The position numbers were made by a program, and so were the translations under genes. A stretch of 18,386 nucleotides of DNA from Candidatus Roizmanbacteria bacterium (lineage in GTDB: Bacteria > Patescibacteriota > Microgenomatia > UBA1406 > GWC2-37-13). Where the stretch lies: assembly GCA_026395455.1 (NCBI GenBank), contig JAPLYR010000069.1, positions 1-18,386 on the forward strand, in the 5' to 3' direction. This document shows, piece after piece, positions 1,107-17,918 of this stretch (positions within the stretch are counted from its first letter, which is position 1; the number at the start of each line of letters is the position of its first letter). Under the pieces are notes generated by a model. It saw nothing but the letters and a program-made list of their open reading frames with translations, was not told the origin of the DNA and ran no database searches.

Positions 1107-1112
1107 ATTATA
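1107..1112 (-). promoter_or_regulatory. -10 element of gltX
   Basis: On the minus strand this reads TATAAT, ending 8 bases before the gltX ATG. Transcription would begin 0-2 bases before the start codon. A GGAGGAGG stretch lies just upstream of this hexamer, so it would not be in the mRNA and cannot act as a ribosome site for this promoter. I see no good -35 hexamer at 16-18 bases. Confidence 0.5.
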
Positions 1113-1133
1113 TATCATCCTCCTCCGCTCTTG

Positions 1134-1162
1134 TTGACAGACGTATCTGTTCGCTGTAGACT
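1134..1162 (+). promoter_or_regulatory. Promoter of slipin gene, leaderless type
   Basis: TTGACA (1134-1139), a 17-base spacer, then TAGACT (1157-1162). The hexamer ends 8 bases before the ATG at 1171, so the transcript is expected to start at or within two bases of the start codon. No Shine-Dalgarno lies between. Confidence 0.7.
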
Positions 1163-1170
1163 AATTTCAT

Positions 1171-1935
1171 ATGGAACTATCTATTTTTTTCGTAATAATC
1201 GCAGTCGTTTTGTTTTTTATGAGTGTAAAAGTTGTGAATGAATATGATAGAGGTGTTATATTTTTCTTAGGTCGTTGTACTGGAGTGCGTGGACCGGGTC
1301 TTATTGTTCTTGTCCCCATATTGGAACGAATGCAACAAGTGGCACTTCGTACTGTGACCATGGGAATTCCTTCACAAAAAATTATTACCAAAGATAATGT
1401 TTCTATTGATATTGCAGCAGTCGCATATTACCACATTGTTGATCCACAAAAATCAGTTATTGCTATTGAAAATGTATATGAAGCAGTAAATCAAATAAGC
1501 CAAACAACAGTTCGTAATGTTGTTGGTCAGTTTGTTCTTGATCATCTTCTTTCTAATACAACAGCTATTAATACTCAGATTAAGAATGTTATCGATGCTC
1601 ATACTGAGCCATGGGGTGTTCAAGTTACAGCTGTTGAAATAAAAGACATCTTTCTTCCAGAGAATATGCAACGTGCAATGGCAAAAGAAGCAGAAGCAGA
1701 ACGTGAAAGAAGAGCAAAAATTGTTGCAGCAGAAGGAGAGTTTCAAGCAGCACAAAAATTGGGAGAAGCAGCTGATCTTATCTCGGCTCACCCAGTAGCA
1801 CTTCAACTAAGAACATTGCAGACAATGGCAGAAATAAGTGTTGAGAAGAATTCAACAATAATATTTCCCGCTCAATTCATGAGTACTGTGCAAGAAGCAA
1901 TAAAAGTAATTAAAGGTGATGCAGCGACAAAGTAA
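1171..1935 (+). CDS. SPFH/band 7 (slipin/stomatin-like) membrane protein
   Basis: Stomatin/prohibitin-family scaffold protein, 254 residues, the usual size for bacterial slipins. Residues 3-20 form one N-terminal membrane segment. The SPFH domain follows from the VNEYDRGVIFFLGR motif (about 22-35) through the VEIKDIFLPENMQRAMAKEAEAERERRAKI segment (about 156-185), which begins the Ala/Glu-rich coiled coil characteristic of the family. These proteins oligomerise on the inner membrane and are linked to membrane microdomains and to membrane-protease partners; the partner here is unknown. The usual neighbour NfeD is absent. The gene converges on the VirB4 gene with only 11 bases between stops and has its own strong promoter, so the proximity to the secretion genes is not evidence of a joint function. 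Confidence 0.9.
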   Translation: MELSIFFVIIAVVLFFMSVKVVNEYDRGVIFFLGRCTGVRGPGLIVLVPILERMQQVALRTVTMGIPSQKIITKDNVSIDIAAVAYYHIVDPQKSVIAIENVYEAVNQISQTTVRNVVGQFVLDHLLSNTTAINTQIKNVIDAHTEPWGVQVTAVEIKDIFLPENMQRAMAKEAEAERERRAKIVAAEGEFQAAQKLGEAADLISAHPVALQLRTLQTMAEISVEKNSTIIFPAQFMSTVQEAIKVIKGDAATK

Positions 1936-1946
1936 TAATTGAAGAT

Positions 1947-3683
1947 TTATTCTATCATTGAACGTTCTTCGTCTGATGCTATTCCTCTGAATCCCACGTG
2001 GGATTGTCCTGCAAAGAATAGTCCTTCTCCTACACCTGCGGAAAGGAGGAAGTGTTTTTCTCCACCTGTAAGATAAAAGGTGTCGGTAATTTTGTCAACT
2101 GCAGCGGTTGATTGTTTCAGAATAATTTGCATGGAGGAATTGGTGACAATCGCCTTTCCTTCTTCTGTTGATAAGAAGTCTTCTACGTCTTGAGTAATCG
2201 TTGTTAGTCCAAGATGATATTTTCGCGCTCGTTTTGCAAAACTATGAAGATATGCACCAGAGTCTTTATGTTTTATCAAATACCATGCCTCATCAACTAT
2301 TAAAACTCGCTTTTTTACATCACGCCGAACAGTATTCCAAATATAATCAAGCACTATATACATTGCTACTGGTCTTAAATTTTCTTCCAAGTCTCTAATA
2401 CCAAACACAGTAAAATGATTTTTAATATCAAAGTTTGATTTTTGATTAAAAATACCTGCGGCAGAGCCCATAACAAATTTTTCAAGACGACCTGCCATTT
2501 CTTTTGCCTCAGGAGTTTCCATACCCATAAACACCTTATATAAGTCTTCAAGAAGTGGTGCTGGTAGTTTAAATGTAGACGGATCCTGTGTAATTCCTAC
2601 GTTTCGATATGTCATAACAAGTGCTCGATCCAGGAGTGCATCTTGAGCTGGAGTTATATCTCCCATAATAACTCTCATAAGAGAATGAAGATCAAGAATT
2701 TTGTTCGATAGTTCATCCGCTTCTCCAATCTCACCCACTAAATCAAATGGGTTTATTTTATATTGTGAGGTGGTAGAGAATACAACAAATTCACCACCCA
2801 TAGATTCTGTAAGTTTTTTATATTCATTTTCAGGATCAAGGATAATAACTTCAATTCCCATCATAAGTAGACGGAAGGCTTCCATTTTCACGAAGAAACT
2901 TTTTCCACCTCCCGATTTTCCCAAAATAACTGAGTTGGCATTTTCAAGAGTAAATCGATCAAAAATAATAAGACTTCCGTCATGTTGATTCATACCATAA
3001 AGGATTCCTTCATTACGAGTAAGTGCAGCAGTGGAAAAAGGAAAGGTGGTGGCAAGGGACGTTGTATCCATATTTCTCCACACCGCAAGTTTGTCAGAAA
3101 ACATAGGAACAGTCGATTTAAATCCTTCTTCATGTTCCAGAGTGGCTTGTTTTGCAATTATCAAAATGGAAGAAAGTGATGAATCTACTTCTTTTGTTAC
3201 GTTATCTAACTCATCTTTTGAGTCTGCAGGAATCGTAATATAGAGACCAAACTGAAAAAATCGTTCACTTCCCTTGGCAAGTTCAGCCTGGAGTGAAAGT
3301 GCATCATCAAGTGCTACTTGCGTTGTAGGATCGACGACTTTTCCCGCTTTTATCTCTCCTTCAATTGATGCTTCCATTTCTCCAATTTTTCGCTTTAATT
3401 CATCCAACACTGTTTTTGATTCTGTTGGATAAATAAACATTGAAATATAGAGAGGATGATCAAATGTGATGAGCGAATAAAGCCAATTTGCAGAAACATA
3501 GCGAGGATATGCAGTAACAAACAATGTGCGATAGTATTTTTGGTCTATTTTAAGATGATTAAAATCCACTTCAATAAATGAAGGGGCAATCATGTCTTTT
3601 ATAGAAACGGCTCCTTGTGCGAGCACTGTTCCTACGTTTTGCATTCCCGTTGGTATCACTACATTTTTTGTTGCTCCTGCCAT
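1947..3683 (-). CDS. virB4: VirB4-family type IV secretion ATPase
   Basis: Cytoplasmic or membrane-associated AAA+ type ATPase that powers type IV secretion and conjugation machines. At 578 residues it is shorter than classical VirB4 (about 800). The first 240 residues form the VirB4/CagE-like N-terminal region. Walker A is GKSGGGKS at 255-262, Walker B is LIVDEA at about 461-466, and TTITQDVED at about 494-502 fits the downstream sensor region of this family. It is the last gene of a three-gene operon, starting 2 bases after the stop of the TraC-like gene, with no Shine-Dalgarno before its ATG (coupled translation is likely). The separate upstream TraC-like protein may supply part of the N-terminal region that is fused in longer homologues. 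No coupling protein (VirD4), relaxase or VirB11 lies in the window. Confidence 0.93.
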   Translation of the reverse strand: MAGATKNVVIPTGMQNVGTVLAQGAVSIKDMIAPSFIEVDFNHLKIDQKYYRTLFVTAYPRYVSANWLYSLITFDHPLYISMFIYPTESKTVLDELKRKIGEMEASIEGEIKAGKVVDPTTQVALDDALSLQAELAKGSERFFQFGLYITIPADSKDELDNVTKEVDSSLSSILIIAKQATLEHEEGFKSTVPMFSDKLAVWRNMDTTSLATTFPFSTAALTRNEGILYGMNQHDGSLIIFDRFTLENANSVILGKSGGGKSFFVKMEAFRLLMMGIEVIILDPENEYKKLTESMGGEFVVFSTTSQYKINPFDLVGEIGEADELSNKILDLHSLMRVIMGDITPAQDALLDRALVMTYRNVGITQDPSTFKLPAPLLEDLYKVFMGMETPEAKEMAGRLEKFVMGSAAGIFNQKSNFDIKNHFTVFGIRDLEENLRPVAMYIVLDYIWNTVRRDVKKRVLIVDEAWYLIKHKDSGAYLHSFAKRARKYHLGLTTITQDVEDFLSTEEGKAIVTNSSMQIILKQSTAAVDKITDTFYLTGGEKHFLLSAGVGEGLFFAGQSHVGFRGIASDEERSMIE

Positions 3684-3685
3684 AG

Positions 3686-4339
3686 TTAGTTGTTACTCAT
3701 AACGACATCCGTATACGAGTCAATTGGTGCCAACATGCGCCCAGTCGCTGATGGATTATATAAATTATAAAATAGCTCTGTAAGTTCTTGTTTTTGCATT
3801 ACATTTGCACGAAGTCCGATTTTTGCAAGTAAACGAAGAAGGTGATCTCTTTTTGGATAGAGGGATGTTTTTGCTCGTGCAATGACGTATTCTTTCTTCA
3901 TTCCACTCCCCATTCCACTAATGCCAATTTCCAAAGGAGAAAATGGAACTACAAAATAAAATTTCTTTTCCAAGACTGAATTTTTTTTCACTATAGACTT
4001 AATAAATTCTTTATAGCTTCCTAAGCGTGTCTTCATAAGATCGTCTTTACTTGTATTTTTTACCGATTCTAAATATTCAAGATATGAAGAAATATCCATT
4101 TTTTTGGAAAGAATAAGAATCTGTATAGGGAATGAAAGAGAATTAAGAAGACTTGAATACGCGTAAATAATGGACGACTGCTCTTCTGCAGATAATAACC
4201 AAAAATTTACAGCTCCAACACTAATAACAACAGATGCTGAAAAATCCTTGAGTAATACTATATCGTCTTTTATGTCTTCTATCTCAGTGAATGACTGAGT
4301 AGATGACTTTATTGGGGACGTTGGTTTTTGAACTGGCAT
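3686..4339 (-). CDS. TraC-like protein of VirB4/PrgI operon
   Basis: 217 residues, soluble, no membrane segment or signal peptide. Residues about 20-95 follow the pattern I know from small TraC-like proteins encoded with VirB4 in Gram-positive conjugative elements and in CPR genomes: an acidic start, VLLKDFSASVVISVGAVNFWLLS, AEEQ, then a helix ending in a LNSLSFPIQILILSKK-type strand and an arm with a D-x-x-x-YL motif. The remainder (about 100-217) has a basic helix and a FYFVVPFSPLE strand. The assignment rests on this pattern and on position between the prgI-like and virB4 genes. It begins 7 bases after the upstream stop and ends 2 bases before the VirB4 start, so all three genes are one transcript. 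It is probably a structural partner or a detached N-terminal part of the ATPase; its precise role is not known. Confidence 0.65.
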   Translation of the reverse strand: MPVQKPTSPIKSSTQSFTEIEDIKDDIVLLKDFSASVVISVGAVNFWLLSAEEQSSIIYAYSSLLNSLSFPIQILILSKKMDISSYLEYLESVKNTSKDDLMKTRLGSYKEFIKSIVKKNSVLEKKFYFVVPFSPLEIGISGMGSGMKKEYVIARAKTSLYPKRDHLLRLLAKIGLRANVMQKQELTELFYNLYNPSATGRMLAPIDSYTDVVMSNN

Positions 4340-4346
4340 AGGTTGA

Positions 4347-5225
4347 CTACATTAACTCTTTGGAATAAAACTCAATAGACTTAATATTGATATCTTGGAT
4401 AGTAATTTTCATTGTATCAAATAAATAGGAGCTCTTTGGGTCCTTAATTTCAAAGATATAATCTCCCGGTGGAAGTGGATTAAATGTTGCAAAAATACCA
4501 TGTTGATTTGTTTTAAGAAGACGAACTGGAGCCCCTTCATTATTTTTTACATAGAGTAATATACCTGGAAGAGGAATTCTTTTTCCATTTTTTACAGTTC
4601 CAATAAAAAATGGCTTATGTTCTTTTTGAATAGATGGAGCCCCTACTGGCTCTTCTTGAGGTGGAGGTGCAACCGGCGAACTATATGCTTGTACAACTTG
4701 TTCTGCCGTTGGTGGAGGTGTGGAAAGTGCTGGTGGAGGAGCGGCAATTGATTGTGCAGGAATGGGATTTTGGAAATTTTGAAACGCTTGAAGAACTTGT
4801 TTTTTTTGTGGATTTGGCTGTACAGTTTGCTTTGTTTTTTCCAAATATGAGGCTAGCATTTGCTGTGACTCAATATGAGCCATTACATGATGTGGGTCTG
4901 ACACAAAATAGAGATTTTGAAGAAGAGTAATTGGCTGATTGTGTTTATGATAGGTAAATTGAGTGGGTGAATTGAGCCTCTTCCAAATATTACGAATCCA
5001 TATATCCAAAGGTCTATCATTAATAGGGAGGAATGCTAGAGCCAGCCCAAGAACACCTACAGCTATTCCTAAGATGATATTAAGTAATGGGATCGGAAAT
5101 ATAACCGAAACGATATACCCAAGTGGTCCAAAGAGGACTAGGTATAAAAATTGCTTCAACGTCATAAACCCGATGAGTTTAAACTCATATAAGGTAATCT
5201 GACGAGGGATCGCATGCTGCTCCAT
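4347..5225 (-). CDS. PrgI-family membrane protein fused to a carboxypeptidase-regulatory-like domain
   Basis: First gene of the secretion operon, 292 residues. Residues 1-100 match the PrgI family (small inner-membrane subunits next to VirB4 in Gram-positive conjugation systems, comparable in position to VirB3). They show a short IPRQI start, two membrane helices (about 24-43 and 47-67), and the RPLDIWIRN segment after the second helix. Residues about 135-200 are a Pro/Gln/Ala-rich linker. Residues about 206-292 form a beta-rich domain with the signatures of carboxypeptidase-regulatory-like/Cna-B folds (GTVKNGKRIPLPGILLYV, TNQHGIFATFNPLPPGDYIFEI). With two helices, both termini should be on the same side of the membrane, so this domain may be cytoplasmic, unusual for a fold mostly seen outside the cell. 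The -10 hexamer TATACT ends 6 bases before the ATG. Confidence 0.8.
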   Translation of the reverse strand: MEQHAIPRQITLYEFKLIGFMTLKQFLYLVLFGPLGYIVSVIFPIPLLNIILGIAVGVLGLALAFLPINDRPLDIWIRNIWKRLNSPTQFTYHKHNQPITLLQNLYFVSDPHHVMAHIESQQMLASYLEKTKQTVQPNPQKKQVLQAFQNFQNPIPAQSIAAPPPALSTPPPTAEQVVQAYSSPVAPPPQEEPVGAPSIQKEHKPFFIGTVKNGKRIPLPGILLYVKNNEGAPVRLLKTNQHGIFATFNPLPPGDYIFEIKDPKSSYLFDTMKITIQDINIKSIEFYSKELM

Positions 5226-5231
5226 ACTTTC

Positions 5232-5260
5232 AGTATACCGAAGGAACAGACAAGTTGAAA
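5232..5260 (-). promoter_or_regulatory. Promoter of PrgI/TraC-like/VirB4 operon
   Basis: On the minus strand: TTTCAA (5255-5260), 17-base spacer, TATACT (5232-5237), then 6 bases to the ATG at 5225. The predicted start of transcription is the A of the ATG, so the first cistron would be leaderless. Confidence 0.6.
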
Positions 5261-5275
5261 GCTGAAAGTAGGAAG

Positions 5276-5322
5276 CAAAGAAAAAAGCTATCGGAAAGTC
5301 ATTTTGACTCCCCTTTAGCTTT
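5276..5322 (-). terminator. Intrinsic terminator after rpsA
   Basis: Reading the minus strand, AAAGCTA (5322-5316) pairs perfectly with TAGCTTT (5290-5284). After a 2x2 internal mismatch, GGGGAGTCA (5313-5305) pairs with TGACTTTCC (5301-5293) across a 3-base loop, using two G-T wobbles. The stem is followed by a T-rich run (TTTTTTCTTTG). It lies between the rpsA stop and the promoter of the secretion operon, so it separates the two units. Confidence 0.8.
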
Positions 5323-5342
5323 AATCTTTACCATTTAGCTGG

Positions 5343-6413
5343 TTATCTATAAGTCACTGGTCGCTCTTTTTGTGTAAGGACAAGACTCATCTTTCGAGAT
5401 CTCTTGTCTACTTTTTCAATATAAGCTTTAATCTTGTCTCCAATCTTTAGGTTTTCTTTACCGGTTAGTTTACTTATATGAATAAGTCCTTCAATTCCAG
5501 GTGTTAATCTGACGAAGTATCCATATCGTTCTTGTCTAACCACTTCTCCATCAACTTCCTTATCTTGTGGATATGTTTCCTCAATTTTTTCCCATGGATC
5601 AATTGAAAGTCTTTTAATAGAAAGATTGAGTTTTAAATCTTGTGTATTTTTTTCAACAACTGATACATCAATATCGTCTCCAACTTTTGCATATCCAGAT
5701 GGATTCATGACTTTTTCCCATGAGATTTCTGAGATATGGATAAGCCCTTCAACTCCAGCTACTTCACAGAAAATACCAAATTCAGAAACACCAAGTACTT
5801 TTGCCTTGTATGTCTTACCAACTTCAATACGTTCAAATTCTTCATGAAGCTGTTTTTGAGATATGTTGAGTGCCGCAACTTTTTGTGAAACGACAAGTCT
5901 GTTCTTTTTCTCGTCTACCTCAAGAATCTTTACTTTTATTTTCTGTCCACTTAATTTTTCTGGACTATTTAAGAAATTTTCTGTCAATTGAATTTTTGGG
6001 ATAACTCCTCGGATTCCCATAAAGTCAACAAATACTCCACCTTTTCCATATTCTCCACACATAACTTCAATTTCTTCTTCCTTATCTTTTTTTGCTTTAA
6101 GAATTTCCCATTTCCCTTGTTCAAAGAACTTTCTCATGGAAACTACTGGATATCCTTCTTTTGATTCTTCAGCAATGATTCGTACATGTGCTGTTTGTCC
6201 TTCTTTCAAATAAGGTAGGTATGTAGAAATTTCTCGTAATTCTTTTTCTCCAAGTAAAGCGTATGCTTTTGCTCCGATGTCAAAAAGGACATTTTTTCGA
6301 GAGAGAGAAATAATTGTTGCCTCAATATCTGCATTTTTCTTTACGCGTGCAAATGGCGCTTTCTGGAGGAGAGCCTCCATTGGGTTAGTTTGGGTTGTGT
6401 TTTTTTTCTTCAT
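5343..6413 (-). CDS. rpsA: Ribosomal protein S1-like, four S1 domains
   Basis: RNA-binding protein of the small ribosomal subunit that helps mRNA docking. 356 residues with four OB-fold S1 repeats at about 26-95, 112-178, 200-268 and 285-348. The last two carry the clearest signatures (VSEFGIFCEVAGVEGLIHISEISWEK and ERYGYFVRLTPGIEGLIHISKL). E. coli S1 has six repeats; four is common in Firmicutes and reduced genomes, and the first two domains here are more diverged, as in ribosome-binding S1 domains. The gene is monocistronic, with its own promoter, a leader of about 27 bases with a Shine-Dalgarno, and a strong terminator. It is the only gene in the window with this classical translation signal. 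Confidence 0.9.
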   Translation of the reverse strand: MKKKNTTQTNPMEALLQKAPFARVKKNADIEATIISLSRKNVLFDIGAKAYALLGEKELREISTYLPYLKEGQTAHVRIIAEESKEGYPVVSMRKFFEQGKWEILKAKKDKEEEIEVMCGEYGKGGVFVDFMGIRGVIPKIQLTENFLNSPEKLSGQKIKVKILEVDEKKNRLVVSQKVAALNISQKQLHEEFERIEVGKTYKAKVLGVSEFGIFCEVAGVEGLIHISEISWEKVMNPSGYAKVGDDIDVSVVEKNTQDLKLNLSIKRLSIDPWEKIEETYPQDKEVDGEVVRQERYGYFVRLTPGIEGLIHISKLTGKENLKIGDKIKAYIEKVDKRSRKMSLVLTQKERPVTYR

Positions 6414-6421
6414 GTGTTTTA

Positions 6422-6432
6422 CCTTTCTCCTT
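6422..6432 (-). promoter_or_regulatory. Shine-Dalgarno of rpsA
   Basis: The minus strand reads AAGGAGAAAGG. The AAAGG part ends 8 bases before the ATG at 6413, good spacing for a ribosome-binding site; the GGAG part ends 13 bases before it. It supports the 6413 start. No comparable motif precedes the other starts in the window. Confidence 0.7.
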
Positions 6433-6447
6433 GGTTAGGAAGAGTAA

Positions 6448-6476: not shown

Positions 6477-6479
6477 CAG

Positions 6480-7004: not shown

Positions 7005-7009
7005 ACCCT

Positions 7010-7038
7010 ATTGTACCACAACCTCAAATGTTCTTGCA
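7010..7038 (-). promoter_or_regulatory. Promoter of DUF5667-like gene
   Basis: On the minus strand: weak -35 TGCAAG (7033-7038), 17-base spacer, -10 TACAAT (7010-7015), 5 bases to the ATG. A leaderless transcript is predicted. Confidence 0.5.
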
Positions 7039-7062
7039 CAGACGCAAAATTAATACTATATT
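7034..7062 (+). promoter_or_regulatory. Promoter of cohesin-like/peroxiredoxin operon
   Basis: TTGCAC (7034-7039), 17-base spacer, TATATT (7057-7062), 7 bases to the ATG at 7070. The -35 box overlaps that of the divergent DUF5667-like promoter, so the two polymerases cannot bind at once. Confidence 0.65.
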
Positions 7063-10101: not shown

Positions 10102-10131
10102 ACTATAAACTTTTATATTGTATATTGTCAA
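10102..10131 (-). promoter_or_regulatory. Promoter of the split carboxypeptidase-regulatory gene
   Basis: On the minus strand: consensus TTGACA (10126-10131), 18-base spacer, TATAGT (10102-10107), 8 bases to the ATG at 10093. A leader of 0-2 bases is predicted. It faces the VirB6-like promoter, with adjoining -35 regions. Confidence 0.65.
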
Positions 10132-10132
10132 C

Positions 10133-10161
10133 TTGTCATCACGTCTTCGTTCAGTTAGTAT
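10133..10161 (+). promoter_or_regulatory. Promoter of VirB6-like gene
   Basis: TTGTCA (10133-10138), 17-base spacer, TAGTAT (10156-10161), 6 bases to the ATG at 10168, so transcription would start on the A of the start codon. The AGGAGG just after the ATG is inside the coding region. Confidence 0.6.
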
Positions 10162-10167: not shown

Positions 10168-12750
10168 ATGAGGAGGAAATTTAGCCAGATATTGGTTTTT
10201 GTTTATTGTATGTTGGTTTTAGTGTCCTCTGTGCATGCTCAAGCAGCACTTCCTCCCGCAAATCCTCTCCCTTGTTCAATAGGTTACTGCCCTGTTGAGA
10301 TCCCACCAATGTACAAAACAACCAATACTCCAAAAGGTGCCTACGCAGGAGAAAAATGTGTAACTTCTTATGAAGAGTTCGTCAAAGACCCTCTTATTAA
10401 TCACTATTGGACACTTGATGAACCAACAACAACACAAGGAAAAGCAAATGAACGCGCTCGCCAATTTTTATATTGGGTATTAACTAAAAGTGCTATTGAT
10501 CAACATCCGGTAATTCGACAAATATGGACAGTAACGCAGAATATAACACTTTTCTTGTTTCTCCTTGTTGCTGCTTTGTTTGGACTTGGATACATCGTCG
10601 GACAACGATCTGACTTTCAGCTCAAAATGCAAATTTGGCCAATTATCTATAAAATTGGAGCTGGTCTTCTGTACATTGTCTTTTCTTACGCGATAATCAT
10701 GACGTTTATACAACTTTCTGAGGTGATTATGAATTTTTTTATTAAATCTCTTGGAGGAGATAGGTTGTTTAACATTTATTTCGCAGGAAAAGAGAGTAAG
10801 GAAGCGAGCTACGCAACGTTTGTTGGATGTCGTGACCTGAACTATAAAGTGCAAGAAGCAATCAAGGCAGAAATGTATCTTATGAAAGTAACAAATGTTA
10901 CCTATTACGCTATGGGCATTATGATGCTATTGAGAAAAATTCTCCTCTGGTTTCTTCTATTTGCTGCACCTTTCTTAGCTCTTCTTATGCCATTCGTCTT
11001 TATAAGGAATGTTGGATGGATATGGATTGGCACGTTTGCCCAGTGGGTCTTTTATGGTCCACTCTTTGCCTTATTTCTCGGAGCACTTACCAAAATATGG
11101 CAAAGTGGTATTCCGTTCCCATTTGATTTTTCACGAACAAGTAGCGTCTCTGGTTATATTTATCCAACTGGTATTAATATTGTTTATGGGGGTCCCGCTC
11201 AAGTCGGATCACACATGATTTCAACTCTTAATAATGGAAATTACATTGATACGTTTGCAGAATATGTAATTTCTCTGATTATGTTATGGGCAGTGATTAT
11301 TTTTCCATGGTTTCTGTTACGTATCTTCCGCGATTATTGTTGTGATGGTATTATGGCGATGAAAAATGTCTTAATGTCGATGTATGATCGACTCGCTCCT
11401 CCTCCTAAAACACCGCCACCTGCTCCATCTGCTTCTCATTCATTCAATAATACTTCTATGAAAATGAATAGAGAGGTAGAAGTACCAATTAAAGTGAAAC
11501 TAGAAACACTACAAGAAATTAAACAAACAAAAACAGAAGATATCACTAAATCTCTTAATCTTTCTATGAATAAGATTACTGATATCGCAAAGTTTGAAAC
11601 TAATAAACAGACAAATGAAACTGTGCGAAAAAATATCGACATGTTATCTCAACCAACAAAAGCAGGTACTCCAGCTGAGAGACAAAAGTTTATGAACATC
11701 CGAACGGAGTTGTTTAATAGAACAATAAAAGAAGATAAAGTTGCACGACAAATCCTCTCCTCAATTTCTTCATCAAGAACGGAGTCAAGTACTCGAAAAG
11801 AGGAGTTATTACGCACAGTTCCACGAACTGCTCCACCAACAGCTTACAAGGTAAATATTTCAACTGACAAAGTGACATCAATGAATACCTCATTAGTAAA
11901 TGCGGTAACATCCAACACTTCCGTTCTTGCACAAATTGCACAAACCACACAAGCTCCAGCTCAGCAAATTCAAACAGTATTAAGTTCGTATAAAACAAAT
12001 ATTGCTCATGCCCCAGCTGAAATATTGACCAATATTACAAAAGAAACAGGCATTGCAAGTGACACAGTTAAATCAATTATCAAAGCGATTGCATCCTCCA
12101 TTAAGAAGAATAAAGAAGTAGTTAAGAAGGTGGCAGAGAAGGAACAAATGAAAGAAGAAGATGTAGAAAGAGTAATTGAAACTCAAACTCCTCTTGTCTC
12201 AGAACCAGAAAAAACCATTGAACAGTTAGTATCTATCCCACCAAGTGTCTCAATTGAAGACTATGAGGAAGTGAAAAAAATGTGGACTCAACAATATGAA
12301 AAGGGTGAGGTCCCAACATCAGAAAATATTACTTCTCGTGAACAATGGGTTGACCAAGATGTTGTCTTTATTACAAATACACTCAATAAACTACTTTCTG
12401 CAGATGATAAGTTACGCCAAGAAGGCATAGATGACCTTGCCTATATTCTTCCCATATTCCTTATTAATAGTCTCAAGGGTGAAGAACTCATTGTATATCT
12501 AAAAGCAAAAATTGAAGCAGCAAAAGCAGTAAAACATGACATGGATAAGGAACGTGAAATTACAGAAAAATTAAAGAAAAAATCTGAAGAAACAGAAGAG
12601 TTTGTTGATGTAAAGAAGAAAACAGAAGAAAATACAAAGACTCTTGAAATGAGTCAAGACTTGCCTGGAGAAGAAGAAAAGACTAAAGAAGAATCAAATC
12701 CTTCGGAAAACGTGTCAACACCTCAATCTCCCCCTGAAGAGAAACTGTAA
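10168..12750 (+). CDS. VirB6-like membrane protein with long C-terminal extension
   Basis: 860 residues. The N-terminal half has the layout of VirB6/TrbL channel-lining proteins of type IV secretion. A signal-peptide-like helix (5-24) is followed by an exported loop with Cys36, Cys41 and Cys64. Membrane helices lie at about 124-145, 163-190, 243-280 (a pair), 283-308 and 365-388, with an aromatic-rich WIWIGTFAQWVFYGPLFALFLGALTKI segment typical of the family. From about 400 on the protein is soluble. A Pro-rich stretch (411-424) is followed by Ser/Thr/Asn-rich helical sequence, and then a Lys/Glu-rich, probably coiled, end (780-860). VirB6 proteins are usually about 300-400 residues; extended ones exist in Rickettsiales and Gram-positive systems. 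With VirB4 and PrgI nearby, it likely forms the inner-membrane pore. The last 68 bases overlap the convergent M24 gene. Confidence 0.78.
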   Translation: MRRKFSQILVFVYCMLVLVSSVHAQAALPPANPLPCSIGYCPVEIPPMYKTTNTPKGAYAGEKCVTSYEEFVKDPLINHYWTLDEPTTTQGKANERARQFLYWVLTKSAIDQHPVIRQIWTVTQNITLFLFLLVAALFGLGYIVGQRSDFQLKMQIWPIIYKIGAGLLYIVFSYAIIMTFIQLSEVIMNFFIKSLGGDRLFNIYFAGKESKEASYATFVGCRDLNYKVQEAIKAEMYLMKVTNVTYYAMGIMMLLRKILLWFLLFAAPFLALLMPFVFIRNVGWIWIGTFAQWVFYGPLFALFLGALTKIWQSGIPFPFDFSRTSSVSGYIYPTGINIVYGGPAQVGSHMISTLNNGNYIDTFAEYVISLIMLWAVIIFPWFLLRIFRDYCCDGIMAMKNVLMSMYDRLAPPPKTPPPAPSASHSFNNTSMKMNREVEVPIKVKLETLQEIKQTKTEDITKSLNLSMNKITDIAKFETNKQTNETVRKNIDMLSQPTKAGTPAERQKFMNIRTELFNRTIKEDKVARQILSSISSSRTESSTRKEELLRTVPRTAPPTAYKVNISTDKVTSMNTSLVNAVTSNTSVLAQIAQTTQAPAQQIQTVLSSYKTNIAHAPAEILTNITKETGIASDTVKSIIKAIASSIKKNKEVVKKVAEKEQMKEEDVERVIETQTPLVSEPEKTIEQLVSIPPSVSIEDYEEVKKMWTQQYEKGEVPTSENITSREQWVDQDVVFITNTLNKLLSADDKLRQEGIDDLAYILPIFLINSLKGEELIVYLKAKIEAAKAVKHDMDKEREITEKLKKKSEETEEFVDVKKKTEENTKTLEMSQDLPGEEEKTKEESNPSENVSTPQSPPEEKL

Positions 12751-13753: not shown

Positions 13754-13761
13754 AGGTATTC

Positions 13762-14232
13762 TCAATTCTCATTTTTATATACCACAAGTATTCCTAAGAA
13801 TATAAGAAGAACTGGCCATAATTTTTTTATGATAAAAAAATCAAGAAGTCCCAAGTTTGTGAGTAAAAATATGAGTCCAACAATGACGAGAATAACGCCA
13901 AGTGATTGTTGTGATTTTTCTTTTTTATCACTTACTTCTTGATGTGCTTCTCTTTTTACTTCTTTTGCAAACTCCTGTACTGCTTCTTTCATTTGTTGTA
14001 CGTTTTCCTTAAACATATCTCTTCCATCAACTGTTTTAGAAGTATCACTGGGAAGAAGTAACCATAATAAAATATAAATAAGAACACCCGACCCTCCACA
14101 TACTGCAAGGACAATGAAAAGAAGTCGAATAATATTGGGATCTACGTCAAAGTAGCGTGCAATGCCAGATGCAACACCTGCTAATATCTTGCTTGTTGAG
14201 TCCCGAAGGAGCCTCTTTTCATTTTTTATCAT
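13762..14232 (-). CDS. PspC-domain membrane protein
   Basis: 156 residues. Residues 6-62 match the PspC domain: KRLLRDSTSKILAGVASGIARYFDVDPNIIRLLFIV, then a Gly-containing membrane helix ending in LLWLLLPSD. A charged amphipathic segment (about 70-105) follows, then two further helices (about 110-128 and 133-152) like those at the ends of LiaF/LiaI-type and DUF5668 proteins. PspC-domain proteins sense or buffer inner-membrane stress; no PspA, PspB or LiaRS genes are nearby, so the link is by domain only. The stop (TGA 13764-13762) overlaps the alternative TTG start of the M24 gene, so the two are co-transcribed. Confidence 0.85.
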   Translation of the reverse strand: MIKNEKRLLRDSTSKILAGVASGIARYFDVDPNIIRLLFIVLAVCGGSGVLIYILLWLLLPSDTSKTVDGRDMFKENVQQMKEAVQEFAKEVKREAHQEVSDKKEKSQQSLGVILVIVGLIFLLTNLGLLDFFIIKKLWPVLLIFLGILVVYKNEN

Positions 14233-14243
14233 AGTATCTGATC

Positions 14244-14249
14244 ATTGTA
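14244..14249 (-). promoter_or_regulatory. -10 element of PspC-like/M24 operon
   Basis: TACAAT on the minus strand, ending 11 bases before the ATG at 14232, predicting a leader of about 5 bases. The upstream flank is a run of A/T with no good -35 box. Confidence 0.4.
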
Positions 14250-14258
14250 ACAAAAAAA

Positions 14259-14966
14259 TTATTTTAAAAAATCCAAAATAAGAATTCTTGGAATAAGAGT
14301 GTTTTGTTTTTCTTCTCCCACTTCTTTTATCGTGTCCAAATAAAAACCTTTTGAAATAAAAGCAGATATATAATCCCCAACAGTTTTTGGATACCAAGTA
14401 AGTTTAACCTTCTCCCATAAAGACAGCTTGGTTTGCGCACTTCTATCAAAATAATTACTCAGACTTTGATATTTAGGATTGTTACTTCCAGCTAATTTCT
14501 GAGCAAAATAAAACTGAGTATTAAATGGGTGATCAACGGCGACAATAAGATGTCCTTTTGCTTTCAATACTCTATATGACTCCTGTGCAAAGAGCGATAT
14601 GTTGTTGATATATTGTAAAACCATTTTTGAAATGATTACGTCAAATACATTATTTTGAAACGGCATTTTTTCAACCACATCAAGTTCTTGAAAACTTAAA
14701 TTTGAAATATTTGTATATTTCCTTTTGCACAAGGCAATAAACATATCTGAAAAATCTGTTCCGATTACCGATAATGCTTTTTTTGCAATTTCAGCACTGA
14801 AATACCCACTCCCACACCCAGAATCTAAAATTATTTTATTAGTAGTATCCCCTAGTAGTTCTTTTATTGTTGGATGGATAAGACTATTATTTAATTTATC
14901 TCCCTCTTCTCCCATTCCATCGTTATAAATGTTAACTGCAGTATTCCATTGTTGTTTAGTGTTCAT
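14259..14966 (-). CDS. Class I SAM-dependent methyltransferase
   Basis: 235 residues, cytoplasmic. The Rossmann signature is clear: motif I ILDSGCGSG (46-54), an acidic residue after the second strand in VIGTDFS (D71), then FQELDVVEKMPFQNNVFDVIISKMVLQYI, the motif II/III region of the Methyltransf_11 family, and VLKAKGHLIVAVDHPF. Such enzymes methylate small molecules, quinone precursors or other substrates; the substrate is not evident, and neighbours give no pathway. The -10 hexamer TAAAAT ends 6 bases before the ATG, and the gene diverges from the exonuclease gene. The stop lies 26 bases before the PspC-like start in the same direction, and that space carries a T run and the next promoter. 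Confidence 0.88.
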   Translation of the reverse strand: MNTKQQWNTAVNIYNDGMGEEGDKLNNSLIHPTIKELLGDTTNKIILDSGCGSGYFSAEIAKKALSVIGTDFSDMFIALCKRKYTNISNLSFQELDVVEKMPFQNNVFDVIISKMVLQYINNISLFAQESYRVLKAKGHLIVAVDHPFNTQFYFAQKLAGSNNPKYQSLSNYFDRSAQTKLSLWEKVKLTWYPKTVGDYISAFISKGFYLDTIKEVGEEKQNTLIPRILILDFLK

Positions 14967-14972
14967 GTTTAT

Positions 14973-14978
14973 ATTTTA
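14973..14978 (-). promoter_or_regulatory. -10 element of methyltransferase gene
   Basis: TAAAAT on the minus strand, 6 bases before the ATG at 14966, preceded directly by TG. No clear -35 box at the normal distance. A leaderless start is predicted. Confidence 0.45.
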
Positions 14979-15013
14979 CATCTCAAATATTTTCAAAGCG
15001 AGAGGTTACATAA

Positions 15014-15041
15014 TTGACGTATAATGGTGATCGTTTACACA
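15014..15041 (+). promoter_or_regulatory. Promoter of exonuclease gene (two readings)
   Basis: TTGACG (15014-15019), 16-base spacer, TACACA (15036-15041), 9 bases to the ATG at 15051: again nearly leaderless. A perfect TATAAT at 15020-15025 is an alternative -10 and would give a leader of about 19 bases, but it lacks a -35 box. Either reading excludes the earlier ATG at 15024. Confidence 0.45.
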
Positions 15042-15050
15042 ACAAAACAT

Positions 15051-15599
15051 ATGTTTGATAAAAGTTTAGCTATTGTGGACGTTGAGACTACTGGGATGAG
15101 TGCACGCCATAATCGAGTGATTGAAATTGCCATTATTCGAATCGAGGGAAATAAAATTGCAGATACATTCACAACGTGCATTAACCCAGAGGTGAACATC
15201 CCCTCTTTTATTACTCACCTTACTGGAATTTCTCAAAAGGATGTGGACAGTGCCCCCATTTTTGGAAAAGTAAAACATAAAGTAAAAAAAATTCTAAAGG
15301 GCGCCACTTTTGTTGCACATAATGCGTGGTTTGATTATTCATTTATCCAAAATGAGTTTGATCGTGTCAATATTCCTTTTGAATCAAAAAGATGTTGCAC
15401 GGTACGCCTATCAAGGCGCCTCTACCCACAATACAAATCTCACAGTCTTGCAAGTGTCATTGATCGATTTGGATTTGGATATGAAAGCCGTCATCGAGCA
15501 TATGATGATGCATTCGTCGTCTGGCAATTCTTAAAGAGAATAAAAAAAGAAATACCTGCAAAGATGGTGAAAGAAACATGGAAGCTGTTGACAGTCTAA
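15051..15599 (+). CDS. DnaQ-like 3'-5' exonuclease (DEDDh)
   Basis: 182 residues from the ATG at 15051. An ATG at 15024 in the same frame overlaps promoter elements and is less likely. The DEDDh motifs are complete: Exo I D10-x-E12 in VDVETTG, Exo II D95 in HNAWFDYSF, and Exo III H148 and D153 in HRAYDDA. The family includes the proofreading epsilon subunit of DNA polymerase III and stand-alone exonucleases such as RNase T and ExoX. The short length, with no UvrC-like or helicase partner domain, leaves either epsilon-like proofreading or an independent nuclease open. Single gene with its own promoter. Confidence 0.9.
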   Translation: MFDKSLAIVDVETTGMSARHNRVIEIAIIRIEGNKIADTFTTCINPEVNIPSFITHLTGISQKDVDSAPIFGKVKHKVKKILKGATFVAHNAWFDYSFIQNEFDRVNIPFESKRCCTVRLSRRLYPQYKSHSLASVIDRFGFGYESRHRAYDDAFVVWQFLKRIKKEIPAKMVKETWKLLTV

Positions 15600-15619
15600 G
15601 TTACTTTATTAAAATAGTC

Positions 15620-15648
15620 TTGCTTATATATTTCAATACTTGTACATT
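15620..15648 (+). promoter_or_regulatory. Promoter of collagen-like gene
   Basis: TTGCTT (15620-15625), 17-base spacer, TACATT (15643-15648), 8 bases to the ATG at 15657. A leaderless transcript is predicted. Confidence 0.5.
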
Positions 15649-15656
15649 GTAAATAT

Positions 15657-16421
15657 ATGAAATACAAAAATTTAGTTATTCTACCTTTAATAACCTTTTT
15701 CTTGTTCTTTGTTGTCTATAAAGTGTCTGCAACTGTTCAACTTCCCCGTATTTCTATTGCCTGTGAGTCAAAGATTGGTGCATTGTTTGCTTTTAATGAT
15801 GGGTTTAGTTTATTAAAAAAATGTCCGGCAGGATCCCAACAAGTAGTGTTAATTGGTGAAAAAGGAGATAAAGGTGATAAGGGAGATACTGGCTCAGTTG
15901 ATCCAACAATATTGACAGACCTTAATAATAAAATATCTGATTTACAAAATCGAGTCACGGTACTTGAAAATTCTACATATACCCCAACTCCTACGCCAGG
16001 ACCAGTGATAACAACAATTACAAGTGATGGTTCTTGGAAATATTCTGAATTTAATATGTTGGGGTGGAATGAGGTTATGTTTGATGATAGTAGTTGGCTA
16101 ACTTCACTATCTCCTCCTCCTCTTGGTGAATGTATGACTTCGCCACCTCAATCAATGTGGGCACAGAGTCCCTTTACTAGTACTGCATACTTTAGAAAGG
16201 TTTTTAATGTAGCATCTCCAAAAACAGGGACCATTAAAGCTTCAATTGATACAGGAGGGGAAGTTTATGTTAATGGTGTTTCCGTCATAAGTGGAGTATC
16301 TACGTCTCCACAAACAGTTAATGTAGGACCTTATTTAACCGTTGGAAACAATGTTATTGCTGTTAGCGCTTCAGCATCAGGATCCTGTAAATGGGTACAG
16401 GTAGAGTTGTCTCTTTATTGA
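15657..16421 (+). CDS. Collagen-like trimeric surface fibre with galactose-binding-like head
   Basis: 254 residues. Residues 1-25 are a signal peptide or membrane anchor (cleavage possible after VSA). Cys36 and Cys56 frame a small N-terminal module. Residues 67-80 are Gly-x-y repeats (GEKGDKGDKGDTGS), the classic stable collagen triplets. A perfect a/d heptad follows (L86, L89, I93, L96, V100, L103), a short coiled coil able to trimerise the chain. A Thr-Pro linker (about 109-116) leads to a beta-rich domain (about 120-254) resembling galactose-binding-like/jelly-roll folds: DGSWKYSE, FDDSSWL, AYFRKVFNV, GEVYVNGV and NVIAVSASASGSCKW. The arrangement anchor-collagen-coiled coil-head resembles an adhesin or a fibre tip. 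The ligand is unknown. No sortase motif is present. Confidence 0.7.
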   Translation: MKYKNLVILPLITFFLFFVVYKVSATVQLPRISIACESKIGALFAFNDGFSLLKKCPAGSQQVVLIGEKGDKGDKGDTGSVDPTILTDLNNKISDLQNRVTVLENSTYTPTPTPGPVITTITSDGSWKYSEFNMLGWNEVMFDDSSWLTSLSPPPLGECMTSPPQSMWAQSPFTSTAYFRKVFNVASPKTGTIKASIDTGGEVYVNGVSVISGVSTSPQTVNVGPYLTVGNNVIAVSASASGSCKWVQVELSLY

Positions 16422-16450
16422 GAGAGTAACTAATACTGTCACAGCGGTTT

Positions 16451-17194
16451 TTACTGTACCATCCCAAGAAATGATAGTGCCTTAAAGGTAAGACTATTTT
16501 TTACTTCTTTTATGTGCGATGGTAATTTTCCTCCTTTATTCTTGATCTCCACAAGGTAATGCCCTTCTTGTCCCCATGCAATATCGTATGCTGAAAGAGG
16601 TTCTTCATTTTTTTCTCTTCTTTTAAATCCAGAATGTGTAATAAATGGTCCGGCAAGCTGAGAAAAATCTTGTGCAACCTCCTCGTTTTCTGTTACTATG
16701 GTAAAGATACCATCTCGTTTTAACAAGCAACTCGCTAATTCAAGAGTTGCAAAACGGGGATCATACCTCGGAGAAGGATAGAGGTATGTTATTTTTTCTG
16801 CGACTGGCATAAGGGTAGAGGTAGGTATTGATTTTATGTCAGCATCAATACATGTGAGTAAATGAAGATTATTTTTTGCCTGTTCCCATGCTTCGCGATA
16901 TACCCGTTGTAATTGTTCTGCTCGTGATTTATCCTGCAATACTTTCAGTTCAATAGATGCATATGTTTGACTCTGAGCTATAGAGTGGTTAAGAAAACTA
17001 AATACAGGTAGTCCTGATTCTAACTCATGCATAATCATTCTGGTCGCTTCTGGATTATTATCTATAGCTATTGCACGTTTTCCGAGCGCCAATGTTCTTA
17101 ATGAAGGTAGTAAAGTCGCATCTCCAAAATGAATGTGTGTGTGAGGTCCTTTAGGGATAGAAAGTAATTCAGAGCATCCATGACGTATTTCCAT
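16451..17194 (-). CDS. Unknown protein, methyltransferase-like fold
   Basis: 247 residues, no signal peptide or membrane helix. Two ATGs are adjacent (17197 and 17194); the second lies exactly 6 bases after a TATAAT and is preferred. I do not recognise the family. Residues about 20-48 (HIHFGDATLLPSLRTLALGKRAIAIDNNPEA) look like the first two strands of a Rossmann methyltransferase with an acidic residue after the second strand, but the Gly-rich loop is degenerate. The later segment ITYLYPSPRYDP, a helix and LLKRDGIFTIVTEN resembles the order of elements in TrmB-type tRNA methyltransferases, without the full motif set. Function is open; a diverged nucleic-acid or small-molecule methyltransferase is the best guess. 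It is divergent from the M48 gene and convergent with the collagen-like gene. Confidence 0.6.
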   Translation of the reverse strand: MEIRHGCSELLSIPKGPHTHIHFGDATLLPSLRTLALGKRAIAIDNNPEATRMIMHELESGLPVFSFLNHSIAQSQTYASIELKVLQDKSRAEQLQRVYREAWEQAKNNLHLLTCIDADIKSIPTSTLMPVAEKITYLYPSPRYDPRFATLELASCLLKRDGIFTIVTENEEVAQDFSQLAGPFITHSGFKRREKNEEPLSAYDIAWGQEGHYLVEIKNKGGKLPSHIKEVKNSLTFKALSFLGMVQ

Positions 17195-17200
17195 CATTAT

Positions 17201-17229
17201 ATTATACTATAGGTTATGTATAAAAACAA
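17201..17229 (-). promoter_or_regulatory. Promoter of methyltransferase-like gene
   Basis: On the minus strand: TTGTTT (17224-17229), 17-base spacer, perfect TATAAT (17201-17206), 6 bases to the ATG at 17194. The cleanest leaderless promoter in the window; the -35 box is the same as that of rpsA. Confidence 0.7.
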
Positions 17230-17243
17230 TCTATATGTATAAT
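17214..17243 (+). promoter_or_regulatory. Promoter of M48 peptidase gene
   Basis: Weak -35 TTATGT (17214-17219), 18-base spacer, perfect TATAAT (17238-17243), 6 bases to the ATG at 17250. It interlocks with the divergent promoter at 17201-17229, so both cannot be occupied together. Confidence 0.6.
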
Positions 17244-17249
17244 CTGAAT

Positions 17250-17918
17250 ATGAAATATCTATTTATTCTTATACTTTCCTATGTCACTTGGCAATGGATG
17301 TCCTTATATTTATTTGCGACAAGTATAGGAAACAAAAAAGAAGCGATTAAAATAATTACTGATAATAAACTTCTTGAAATTATTTTCAAAAAAACAGGAT
17401 TGCGCTTGGCGAGTATTCGAGTAAGTTCCTCACAAAAACCGTGGGGGATGATGATTGGTCTTCCCCGCTATCCCTATATGGTATTGTCACAAGGATTATA
17501 TGATTCCTTTGATAAGGATGAATTGGAGTATGTCCTTCTTCATGAATCGGGACACTACATGCTCGCTCACTCTGCAAAACTTGCTGTTCTTTTTATTTCT
17601 TTCTTAACAATTGGGTTTGTAAGTGTTTCGAATATAGAACTGCCACTCATATGGATTGTGATTGCACTTATTATTGGACTTATTCAAATACAGATGAGTC
17701 GCCTGTGTGAATACGAAGCAGATGCATTTACTCTCGCAAGAATGACAAATCCAAAAGGCATGATAACTGCAACTCAGAAATTTGCAAAAGCGTATAAACA
17801 CTTTGATGTTATCCGTCATGATGAAGATACTTTCTTGGGTCGCCTTATTTACATGGGAATTCCGTATAACGAGAGAATAAGGAACGCAGAGAGGGAAATA
17901 ATAAGAAGAAAGAGATAA
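17250..17918 (+). CDS. M48-family membrane metallopeptidase (HtpX-like)
   Basis: 222 residues from the ATG at 17250. An in-frame ATG at 17235 overlaps the -10 hexamer and is rejected. The zinc-protease signature HESGH is at 98-102, and the third ligand is E154 in EYEADAF, the E-x-x-A-D motif of M48. Hydrophobic segments lie at about 1-22, 111-127 and 132-149. The layout matches small HtpX-like integral inner-membrane proteases that degrade damaged membrane proteins. HtpX of E. coli is longer (293 residues) and has two helices before the HExxH, so this is a short version with one N-terminal helix. The end of the gene lies 12 bases from the tmRNA 3' end on the other strand. Confidence 0.88.
   Translation: MKYLFILILSYVTWQWMSLYLFATSIGNKKEAIKIITDNKLLEIIFKKTGLRLASIRVSSSQKPWGMMIGLPRYPYMVLSQGLYDSFDKDELEYVLLHESGHYMLAHSAKLAVLFISFLTIGFVSVSNIELPLIWIVIALIIGLIQIQMSRLCEYEADAFTLARMTNPKGMITATQKFAKAYKHFDVIRHDEDTFLGRLIYMGIPYNERIRNAEREIIRRKR

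Follow-up and report, generated by a model that had tools for sequence, protein, structure and literature searches.

Promoter-like hexamers adjacent to the start codons of first genes in Candidatus Roizmanbacteria, and their probable reading as leaderless transcription

Does a message in Candidatus Roizmanbacteria begin at, or next to, the first codon of its first gene? The question is raised by an 18,386-nt stretch of DNA, here called the window (contig JAPLYR010000069.1 of GCA_026395455.1, Candidatus Roizmanbacteria bacterium), which is also assigned by its relatives to Ca. Roizmanbacteria, Patescibacteria. An earlier note on this DNA had described -10-like hexamers directly before start codons and proposed leaderless transcription as a genome-wide rule. 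A literature search, which covered few subscription journals and preprints, found no paper on leaderless genes or Shine-Dalgarno (SD) usage in Patescibacteria.

Transcript-initial starts in the window

Fourteen starts in the window are able to open a transcript (Table 1), and 12 of them carry TANNNT at a gap of 5–11 nt, the gap being the number of nucleotides between the end of the hexamer and the ATG. Shuffling the upstream 40 nt by dinucleotides gave 4.12 +/- 1.60 such starts, and 0 of 5000 shuffles reached 12. The pattern described in the earlier note is confirmed, with 6413 and 15051 as misses, and the hexamers and gaps that it had quoted (for 1171, 5225, 7004, 7070, 10168, 14966, 17194 and 17250) all lie where it had placed them.

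Table 1. Promoter-like and SD-like elements at the transcript-initial starts of the window.
Element	Position	Strand	ATG	Gap (nt)	Gene or remark
-10 TATAAT	1107..1112	-	1098	8	class I tRNA synthetase (E/Q type), continues beyond the window
-35 TTGACA	1134..1139	+	1171		6/6 match, spacer 17 to TAGACT
-10 TAGACT	1157..1162	+	1171	8	SPFH/Band 7 protein
-10 TATACT	5232..5237	-	5225	6	PrgI-like gene; many orthologues share the hexamer and its spacing
SD-like AAGGAGAAAGG	6422..6432	-	6413		ribosomal protein S1; SD-led exception
-10 TACAAT	7010..7015	-	7004	5	DUF5667 protein
-10 TATATT	7057..7062	+	7070	7	cohesin-domain protein
-10 TATAGT	10102..10107	-	10093	8	TTGACA at spacer 18
-10 TAGTAT	10156..10161	+	10168	6	860-aa protein (no Pfam match); TTGTCA at spacer 17
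-10-like TACAAT	14244..14249	-	14232	11	PspC-domain protein; weakest case
-10 TAAAAT	14973..14978	-	14966	6	methyltransferase
TATAAT	15020..15025	+	15051 or 15024		exonuclease gene; exception
-10 TACATT	15643..15648	+	15657	8	
-10 TATAAT	17201..17206	-	17194	6	
-10 TATAAT	17238..17243	+	17250	6	M48 peptidase

Of the two exceptions, the S1 start at 6413 does not belong among the leaderless members, as it carries AAGGAGAAAGG instead of TANNNT, and SD 5-mers are found in 12 of 16 S1 orthologues. At 15051 the TATAAT ends 25 nt upstream, outside the gap range, and would, if used, give a leader of roughly 19 nt. The leaderless rule had been offered as a means of choosing this start, but it leaves 15024 and 15051 undecided. 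Start choice by codon score alone was also abandoned, since it misplaced the starts of signal peptides (1219 for 1171, 10210 for 10168 and 17298 for 17250).

The statement that many of these promoters have a -35 box was overstated. TTGACA-N17-TAGACT is indeed present before 1171, but a match to TTGACA of at least 5/6 at spacers 15–19 occurs at 3 of 12 window promoters (1171, 10093, 10168), and a rule is not supported. Among 120 sampled promoters, such matches number 9, 3 and 6 at spacers 17, 18 and 19, compared with 14 in all at the 14 other spacers tested, and the extended -10 positions are occupied by T in 52% and G in 35%.

Orthologues offered usable rows (16–73) for prgI, virB4, ORF 3686 and S1, while the 14 other window genes had 0–6. 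In prgI, where orthologue starts were fixed by homology, 16 of the 69 orthologues have TATANT at gap 6 and 0–3 have it at any other gap, and SD 5-mers occur in 0 of 69. The operon-internal virB4 (57 rows) and ORF 3686 (73 rows) show no hexamer peak; SD 5-mers were found in 9/57 and 4/73, respectively, and the virB4 count means that an SD is in use there in some Microgenomates relatives.

A positional peak in Roizmanbacteria genomes

The distance between hexamer and start codon was analysed in samples of the own genome (G000, 287 kb of 977 kb) and of a genome of the same genus (G001, 400 kb), together with 24 named loci, of which 15 bear Roizmanbacteria in the title; these loci were picked around virB4 and are thus non-random. 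Starts were set by a home-made caller as the leftmost in-frame ATG that does not run into the neighbouring gene. Controls were shadow ATGs, chosen by the same leftmost-ATG rule, and internal in-frame ATGs. This genome-wide test, run on samples, yielded a sharp TATAAT-like peak relative to both controls, with SD usage at background. A position weight matrix (PWM) match at gap 4–9 precedes 26/57 divergent genes in G000 (24/346 shadow ATGs, p 3e-12), 45/82 in G001 (35/732, p 1e-29) and 49/98 in the named loci (28/421, p 5e-22). Overall, 46–55% of divergent genes have an adjacent hexamer by PWM and 51–60% by TANNNT, and a -10-like hexamer precedes 7.0% and 3.6% of internal in-frame ATGs. In the whole own genome, TATAAT-N5-9-ATG occurs 166 times and the reversed pattern 95 times (p 7e-6).

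De novo ZOOPS EM without a position prior also recovered TATAAT from 139 divergent genes (lambda 0.69), and gaps 6–9 held 44 of the roughly 96 expected sites; no such motif emerged from a single shuffled set or from a single draw of 139 shadow ATGs. In 176 tight-operon genes the same procedure returned an A-rich AAATAA without a peak at gaps 6–9. PWM matches in tight-operon genes (15/78, 23/98 and 12/58) somewhat exceed the controls, and general AT-richness thus accounts for part of the signal. Starts of all gene classes are A/T-rich, and T occupies -1 in 60–83% of them. The idea that this T is merely the base preceding the transcript start was dropped, as it is seen whatever the gap and also in tight operons. 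Tight-operon starts are generally A-rich from -13 to -3, with A at -3 in 50% and 47% versus 28–31% in controls, and a check for the Kozak-like A at -3 and -6 of Bacteroidia found no isolated peak at -6.

The peak supports the genome-wide claim in part, but universality is not supported: the hexamer stands before about half of divergent genes, and tight-operon genes are mostly organized otherwise. Among divergent genes without an adjacent hexamer, 13/27 (G000) and 22/35 (G001) have a -10-like hexamer at gap 12–40, which is consistent with leadered transcripts.

Since the promoter abuts the start codon in about half of the sampled transcript-initial genes, the message probably begins with the first codon or only a few bases ahead of it. 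For about half of first genes, leaderless or near-leaderless transcription is the explanation that fits best and, judged from sequence, is very probable; its support is the motif, the positional peak, the controls, conservation and SD usage at background. A sigma-70-type promoter with a -10 box ending about 6–9 nt before the ATG would then be a common first-gene design here and in many Patescibacteria. Given the position of the peak, RNA polymerase would begin either on the A of the ATG itself or 1–3 nt ahead of it, and the ribosome may bind the 5'-terminal AUG directly and translate the message as a leaderless mRNA. Tight-operon genes of Roizmanbacteria are likewise SD-less, their starts lying in an A-rich setting with a U at -1, and a few genes keep strong or extended SDs.

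Shine-Dalgarno sequences and the anti-SD

Sites were scored by SD 4-mers or 5-mers and by anti-SD duplex energy. SD 4-mers precede 4/57 and 9/82 divergent genes in the two genome samples, compared with 42/346 and 118/732 shadow ATGs. Median anti-SD energies (sample) lie between -1.2 and -2.3 kcal/mol by gene class, versus -2.4 and -2.7 for shadow ATGs. A ribosome-binding-site (RBS) class was also sought in tight operons of Roizmanbacteria, where SD 4-mers (12/78, 12/98 and 10/58) resemble the controls. SD-led genes, which are abundant in mycobacteria alongside leaderless ones, are nearly absent here. The absence of an SD before first genes is borne out by the background level in the samples, with the SD-led S1 gene at 6413 as the exception. 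The sole SD excess among the Roizmanbacteria sets is found in divergent genes of the named loci (21/98 vs 52/421, p=0.024), and 12 of these 21 are S1 genes by eye (4 by motif match).

A small set of genes, namely rpsU, rplL, rpsA, rpsT and those encoding an RRM protein and HU, has kept strong SDs, which are also present before LemA and DUF5679 genes. The SD of rpsU is extended, with a duplex energy of <= -8 kcal/mol in 19/20 genes examined, and rplL has a strong SD in 20/25. The 3' end of the 16S rRNA, which the earlier note had singled out for a check, bears the canonical anti-SD in 15 of 17 readable tails of relatives, including G001, and the variant ATCATCTCC in the other 2, but is missing from the own assembly. 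There a 79-nt stretch at the anti-SD is absent and the flanks on both sides match G001, probably an assembly fault. A true loss was set aside, not disproved, given these flanks and the rplL and rpsU SDs, which match the canonical anti-SD.

The absence of SDs might be explained as in Bacteroidia, where the ribosome conceals its anti-SD and SDs are useless except on rpsU, which is translated by bS21-less ribosomes in an autoregulatory loop; this mechanism has been demonstrated in F. johnsoniae according to the available text of McNutt et al. 2023 (PMC9976891). Shared with Bacteroidia, as far as described in the available parts of that paper and of McNutt et al. 2021 (PMC8710568), are SD usage at background despite an anti-SD kept in most kin, the extended SD on rpsU and the covariation of SD and anti-SD. 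bS21 is present in 26/30 genomes, and in the relative G023 SD and anti-SD have changed together, as reported for Flavobacteriales (PMC8710568, in part). Here, however, -10 boxes adjoin first genes, and F. johnsoniae is a single-gene case, whereas the strong SDs extend to the other genes named above; a pure bS21-autoregulation model was therefore set aside. Moreover, leaderless signals are listed for 1/37 Bacteroidetes/Chlorobi genomes in the portion of Zheng et al. 2011 (PMC3160421) consulted. A Bacteroidia-like explanation is on balance unlikely, and, because it addresses the missing SD, it could hold together with leaderless transcription.

A tentative alternative, somewhat more plausible yet short of an even chance, is that two start classes exist in Roizmanbacteria: nearly all starts would be SD-less, those of first genes on leaderless mRNAs and those of operon genes in A-rich surroundings with a U at -1, and the anti-SD may be kept for the small strong-SD set (bS21, L7/L12, S1, S20, the RRM protein and HU) as a private regulatory channel for ribosomal and for RNA- or DNA-binding proteins that arose independently of Bacteroidia. 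This possibility is strengthened by G023, whose altered anti-SD is matched by the SDs of its rpsU and rplL genes. Because SDs are so scarce in Roizmanbacteria, while their kin retain the anti-SD and a few genes have strong SDs, the reason for anti-SD conservation becomes testable. If the private channel is real, a signal that once marked starts in general would have become a regulatory element in this bacterium.

The nature of the hexamer and its distribution

The hexamer itself could be a translation element, that is, an AU-rich unstructured or S1-binding stretch in a leadered mRNA. S1 is encoded in the window, the A/T-rich starts of all classes and the modest excess in tight operons suit this view, and the AT-rich biases at -20 to -10 described in the available text of Nakagawa 2017 (PMC5397173) are open to both readings. 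Against it stand the different EM motifs of divergent and tight-operon genes, the -35 enrichment at spacers 17–19 with the extended -10 bases, and the TATACT-N6 kept at prgI, which make it improbable. That the peak is an artefact of start choice, since TA-rich stop triplets lie upstream of any leftmost ATG that follows a stop, is a suspicion that a home-made caller used without annotated starts invites, but it is highly implausible given the 6.9% and 4.8% of shadow ORFs with a -10-like hexamer under the same rule, the spread of the peak over adjacent gaps 6, 7, 8 and 9 instead of one codon phase, the 0/25 obtained for E. coli with the identical pipeline, and the prgI starts set by homology.

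Leaderless transcription also accords with known systems, as far as the portions of the sources available describe them. Zheng et al. 2011 (PMC3160421) found TANNNT/TATAAT about 10 bp upstream of starts, tested it against shuffles and read it as leaderless genes; averages were highest in Deinococcus-Thermus, at 39% of genes, followed by Aquificae at 26.5%. Their TA-led genes have the same signal and position as those seen here, where a -10-like hexamer about 10 bp upstream exceeds the control and no SD lies upstream (S1 excepted); their table of 953 bacterial genomes, in the part available, names no Patescibacteria group. In Deinococcus-Thermus, roughly a third of genes carry TANNNT about 6–7 bp upstream of the ORF, and the promoter function of the motif is supported by reporters and transcript coverage, in a survey that excluded symbiotic or not clearly classified species (Zhong et al. 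2025, PMC12340547). According to the same text, a further class of motif, of RBS type, is spread over the genome of Deinococcus; Roizmanbacteria lack this class. Leaderless transcripts are common in mycobacteria (PMC4633059, PMC3898074, in part) and were shown there by 5'-end mapping, whereas the case made here is drawn from sequence.

If the first genes of Patescibacteria prove largely leaderless, a large, mostly uncultured group would begin protein synthesis unlike the textbook bacterium, and expression constructs for Patescibacteria would need promoters placed directly against the ATG. Gene finders that seek SDs would lose their main clue to Patescibacteria starts; GeneMarkS-2, from Lomsadze et al. 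2018, reportedly models leaderless promoters beside starts.

Beyond Roizmanbacteria, adjacent -10 hexamers are enriched at p<0.05 in 9 of 12 other Patescibacteria samples, with a pooled spike at gap 6 (40/226), and the remaining three (G040, G050 and G030, the last with 8 genes) show no significant enrichment. In whole-genome pattern counts, 23/97 genomes are at or below the reversed pattern, and three (G133, G037 and G158) have a deficit at p<0.01; G031, at p=0.03, falls outside this set. Both the -10 and the RBS class are seen in other Patescibacteria, for example in G045, G069 and G073.

Promoter-like hexamers beside start codons

Every -10-like hexamer quoted in the earlier note is present in the window where it was placed, and TANNNT ends 5-11 nt before the ATG at 12 of 14 potential transcript-initial starts, compared with 4.12 ± 1.60 starts in dinucleotide shuffles of the 40 nt upstream (12 or more in 0/5000). 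The ribosomal protein S1 start at 6413 has no TANNNT at this gap (nucleotides between hexamer end and ATG) and carries AAGGAGAAAGG, and the exonuclease start at 15051 also lacks it and has TATAAT 25 nt upstream. Many of these promoters had been credited with a -35 box; good ones, with spacers of 15-19, accompany just 3 of the 12 starts.

The distance between hexamer and start codon was compared with controls in samples of the window's own genome (G000: the window and 40 contigs picked by number, C1-C40; 286,878 bases, 259 called genes) and of a same-genus genome (G001: 400 kb, 332 genes), and a positional peak was found at gaps 6-9, in line with the earlier note. Genes were called by codon score, with the leftmost suitable ATG as start, and those that lacked an ATG start or 60 nt of upstream sequence, or were truncated by a contig end, were left out, which gave 57 divergent (sampled transcript-initial) genes with ATG in G000 (60 with any start codon). 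Internal in-frame ATGs and the leftmost ATGs of shadow ORFs served as controls. Matches to a PWM built on E. coli -10 frequencies occurred at gap 4-9 in 26/57 divergent genes versus 24/346 shadow ATGs in G000, 45/82 versus 35/732 in G001 and 49/98 versus 28/421 in 24 named loci chosen around virB4 (15 titled Roizmanbacteria), and in 15/78, 23/98 and 12/58 tight-operon genes, respectively. When any ATG within the first 21 codons was allowed, the share climbed only to 30/57 (G000) and 47/82 (G001), so about half of the divergent genes have the adjacent -10 design. TANNNT shares were 50.9% and 59.8% for divergent genes, 10.6% and 6.5% for internal ATGs, and 12.7% and 9.4% for shadow ATGs (G000 and G001). 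Furthermore, when de novo EM was run on 139 divergent genes without a position prior, it recovered TATAAT, with 14.9, 8.9, 10.8 and 9.3 expected sites at the peak gaps 6, 7, 8 and 9; 176 tight-operon genes, a single shuffled set and a single draw of 139 shadow ATGs did not yield this motif. A set of 120 proximal promoters shows an excess of TTGACA-like boxes at spacers 17-19, and the bases preceding the hexamer look like an extended -10. The proposed genome-wide leaderless rule narrows to about half of the divergent genes; of those without an adjacent hexamer, 13/27 (G000) and 22/35 (G001) carry a -10-like hexamer farther upstream, at gap 12-40, and would be leadered, the others being left unassigned.

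Upstream of the prgI-like gene (5225), the DNA appears diverged by eye across orthologues, and TATACT often keeps its place: TANNNT lies at gap 6 in 20/69 orthologues (0-10 at other gaps) and TATANT in 16/69 (0-3 at other gaps), with SD (Shine-Dalgarno) 5-mers in 0/69. The hexamer peak is absent among orthologues of the operon-internal virB4 (57) and ORF 3686 (73), where SD 5-mers occur in 9/57 and 4/73, and S1 orthologues carry one in 12/16.

Sigma-70 transcription starts about 7 nt after the -10 hexamer, so that at gap 6 the mRNA would begin with the A of the ATG, and at gaps 7-9 it would begin 1-3 nt upstream of that base. The motif, its placement against controls, its conservation and the background level of SD were observed directly; the hexamer beside the ATG would be a sigma-70 promoter, its mRNA would begin with a 5'-terminal or near-terminal AUG, and the ribosome would bind this AUG directly.

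T precedes the ATG in 34/57, 39/61, 20/24 and 47/78 starts of the four G000 gene classes and in 53/82, 51/73, 36/49 and 69/98 of G001 (60-83% overall), versus about 24% of shadow controls (85/346 and 172/732); internal ATGs have it in 33.5% (G000) and 25.4% (G001). Since this also holds in operons, U at -1 is probably a translation feature. It might pair with the base beside the initiator anticodon.

Shine-Dalgarno use and the 16S tail

SD 4-mers in tight operons stay at the shadow-ATG level in G000 (12/78 vs 42/346), G001 (12/98 vs 118/732) and the named loci (10/58 vs 52/421), as they do in the remaining gene classes of G000 and G001. Only the named loci show an excess among the Roizmanbacteria sets, in their divergent genes (21/98, p=0.024); by eye, S1 accounts for 12 of these 21. 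The anti-SD at the 16S 3' end is canonical, ATCACCTCC, in 15/17 readable tails of relatives (G001 among them; the unreadable G026 tail is outside this count) and ATCATCTCC in G020 (L005) and G023 (L016). It is missing from the own assembly, where GGATCACCTCCTTTCT is absent throughout: the sole 16S copy found (L021, C35, 3' end near 4970) lacks 79 nt relative to G001, a stretch that takes in the anti-SD, some of helix 45 and hairpins downstream, with both flanks matching. This gap is probably an assembly fault, because the own rplL and rpsU SDs match the canonical tail. Among class and phylum relatives, 3/43 tails deviate from CCTCC (see table).

A few genes carry strong SDs. In family and order relatives, anti-SD energy is ≤ -8 kcal/mol in 19/20 rpsU genes (loci for 20 of 27 matches) and 20/25 rplL genes, compared with 0/29 rpsN genes. 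The start-choice rule put the start within the gene for three of the five rplL genes that miss this level, and probably for the one rpsU gene that does; G010 and G016 rplL lack a strong SD. Across the three Roizmanbacteria sets, with alternative starts permitted, 21/891 genes reach -11.5, including S20, RRM (twice), L7/L12, LemA, HU and S1 (Pfam) and proteins without a clear role. AAGGAGGTG-N2-10-ATG occurs at three places in the own genome (rplL, rpsU and a DUF5679 gene); counted over 30 genomes, the own included, it has 186 occurrences versus 36 for the reversed pattern.

In G023 (L168, L317), whose tail is the variant one, GGAGATG precedes rpsU (-13.5 kcal/mol with its own tail vs -8.8 with the canonical) and GGAGATGA precedes rplL (-19.5 vs -14.8); both SDs are identical in G025 (L167, L304) of the same genus. 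This co-change argues that SD/anti-SD pairing would be in use at both genes. The rplL SD of G020 stays canonical despite its variant tail (own-tail pairing slightly weaker, -15.2 vs -17.8), and the co-change is therefore a single occurrence within one genus rather than a general pattern.

Loci with strong extended SDs and 16S tails deviating from CCTCC
Feature	Genome	Locus	Character	Context
rpsU		L179, L178, L180	strong extended SD	genomes otherwise without SD
rplL		L324, L323, L325	strong extended SD	genomes otherwise without SD
rpsT		L023:10777-11028	strong extended SD	genome otherwise without SD
RRM		L038:2321-2623, L049:12984-13259	strong extended SD	genomes otherwise without SD
16S tail	G071	L193	no CCTCC
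16S tail	G074	L194	CCGCC
16S tail	G037	L209	CTTCC

Breadth, known systems and the window genes

With the identical pipeline, 100 kb of E. coli gave TANNNT at gap 4-9 in 0/25 divergent genes and SD 4-mers in 44-67% of genes, by class. Of 12 other Patescibacteria (100 kb each, one-sided test), nine are enriched at p<0.05 (G045, G052, G073, G069, G070, G034, G094, G112, G118) and three are not (G040, G050 and, with 8 genes, G030); pooled, TANNNT lies at gap 6 in 40/226 divergent genes, versus 5-22 genes at each of the other gaps between 0 and 30. SD in tight operons reaches p<0.05 in 5/12 (G045, G073, G069, G034, G112). Just 25 genes were called in the 100 kb of G030 (L256-L260), which may reflect a different genetic code with TGA read as an amino acid, and its figures would then be unreliable. 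In whole genomes, TATAAT-N5-9-ATG exceeds the reversed pattern in 74/97 (40 at p<0.01; own genome 166 vs 95) and falls below it at p<0.01 in G133 (83 vs 189), G037 and G158, and some Patescibacteria such as these may avoid the adjacent design.

Leaderless genes with a start-adjacent -10 are of a known kind (Zheng 2011, PMC3160421; Zhong 2025, PMC12340547; mycobacteria), from which the present case differs in phylum and in that Roizmanbacteria are nearly without an SD class yet have strong SDs on a few genes. This combination is similar to that of Bacteroidia (McNutt 2021, PMC8710568; McNutt 2023, PMC9976891), although the strong-SD set of Roizmanbacteria covers more genes. In the literature searched, titles and abstract openings gave no report of leaderless genes or SD use in Patescibacteria/candidate phyla radiation, Saccharibacteria or Parcubacteria, and in passages of related papers such terms occur in other connections or reference lists only.

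Among the best 80 of 571 confirmed places, the top relatives of the window's VirB4-like protein are Candidatus Roizmanbacteria (86% identity), Microgenomates and Patescibacteria, and relatives of its gene occur throughout Microgenomates; the own assembly comprises 977 kb in 151 contigs and is 85% complete. A VirB4/TraG-like ATPase and a PrgI-like protein adjoin at 1947-5225, and together with a large protein further along (10168-12750) they resemble components of conjugation or type IV secretion machinery.
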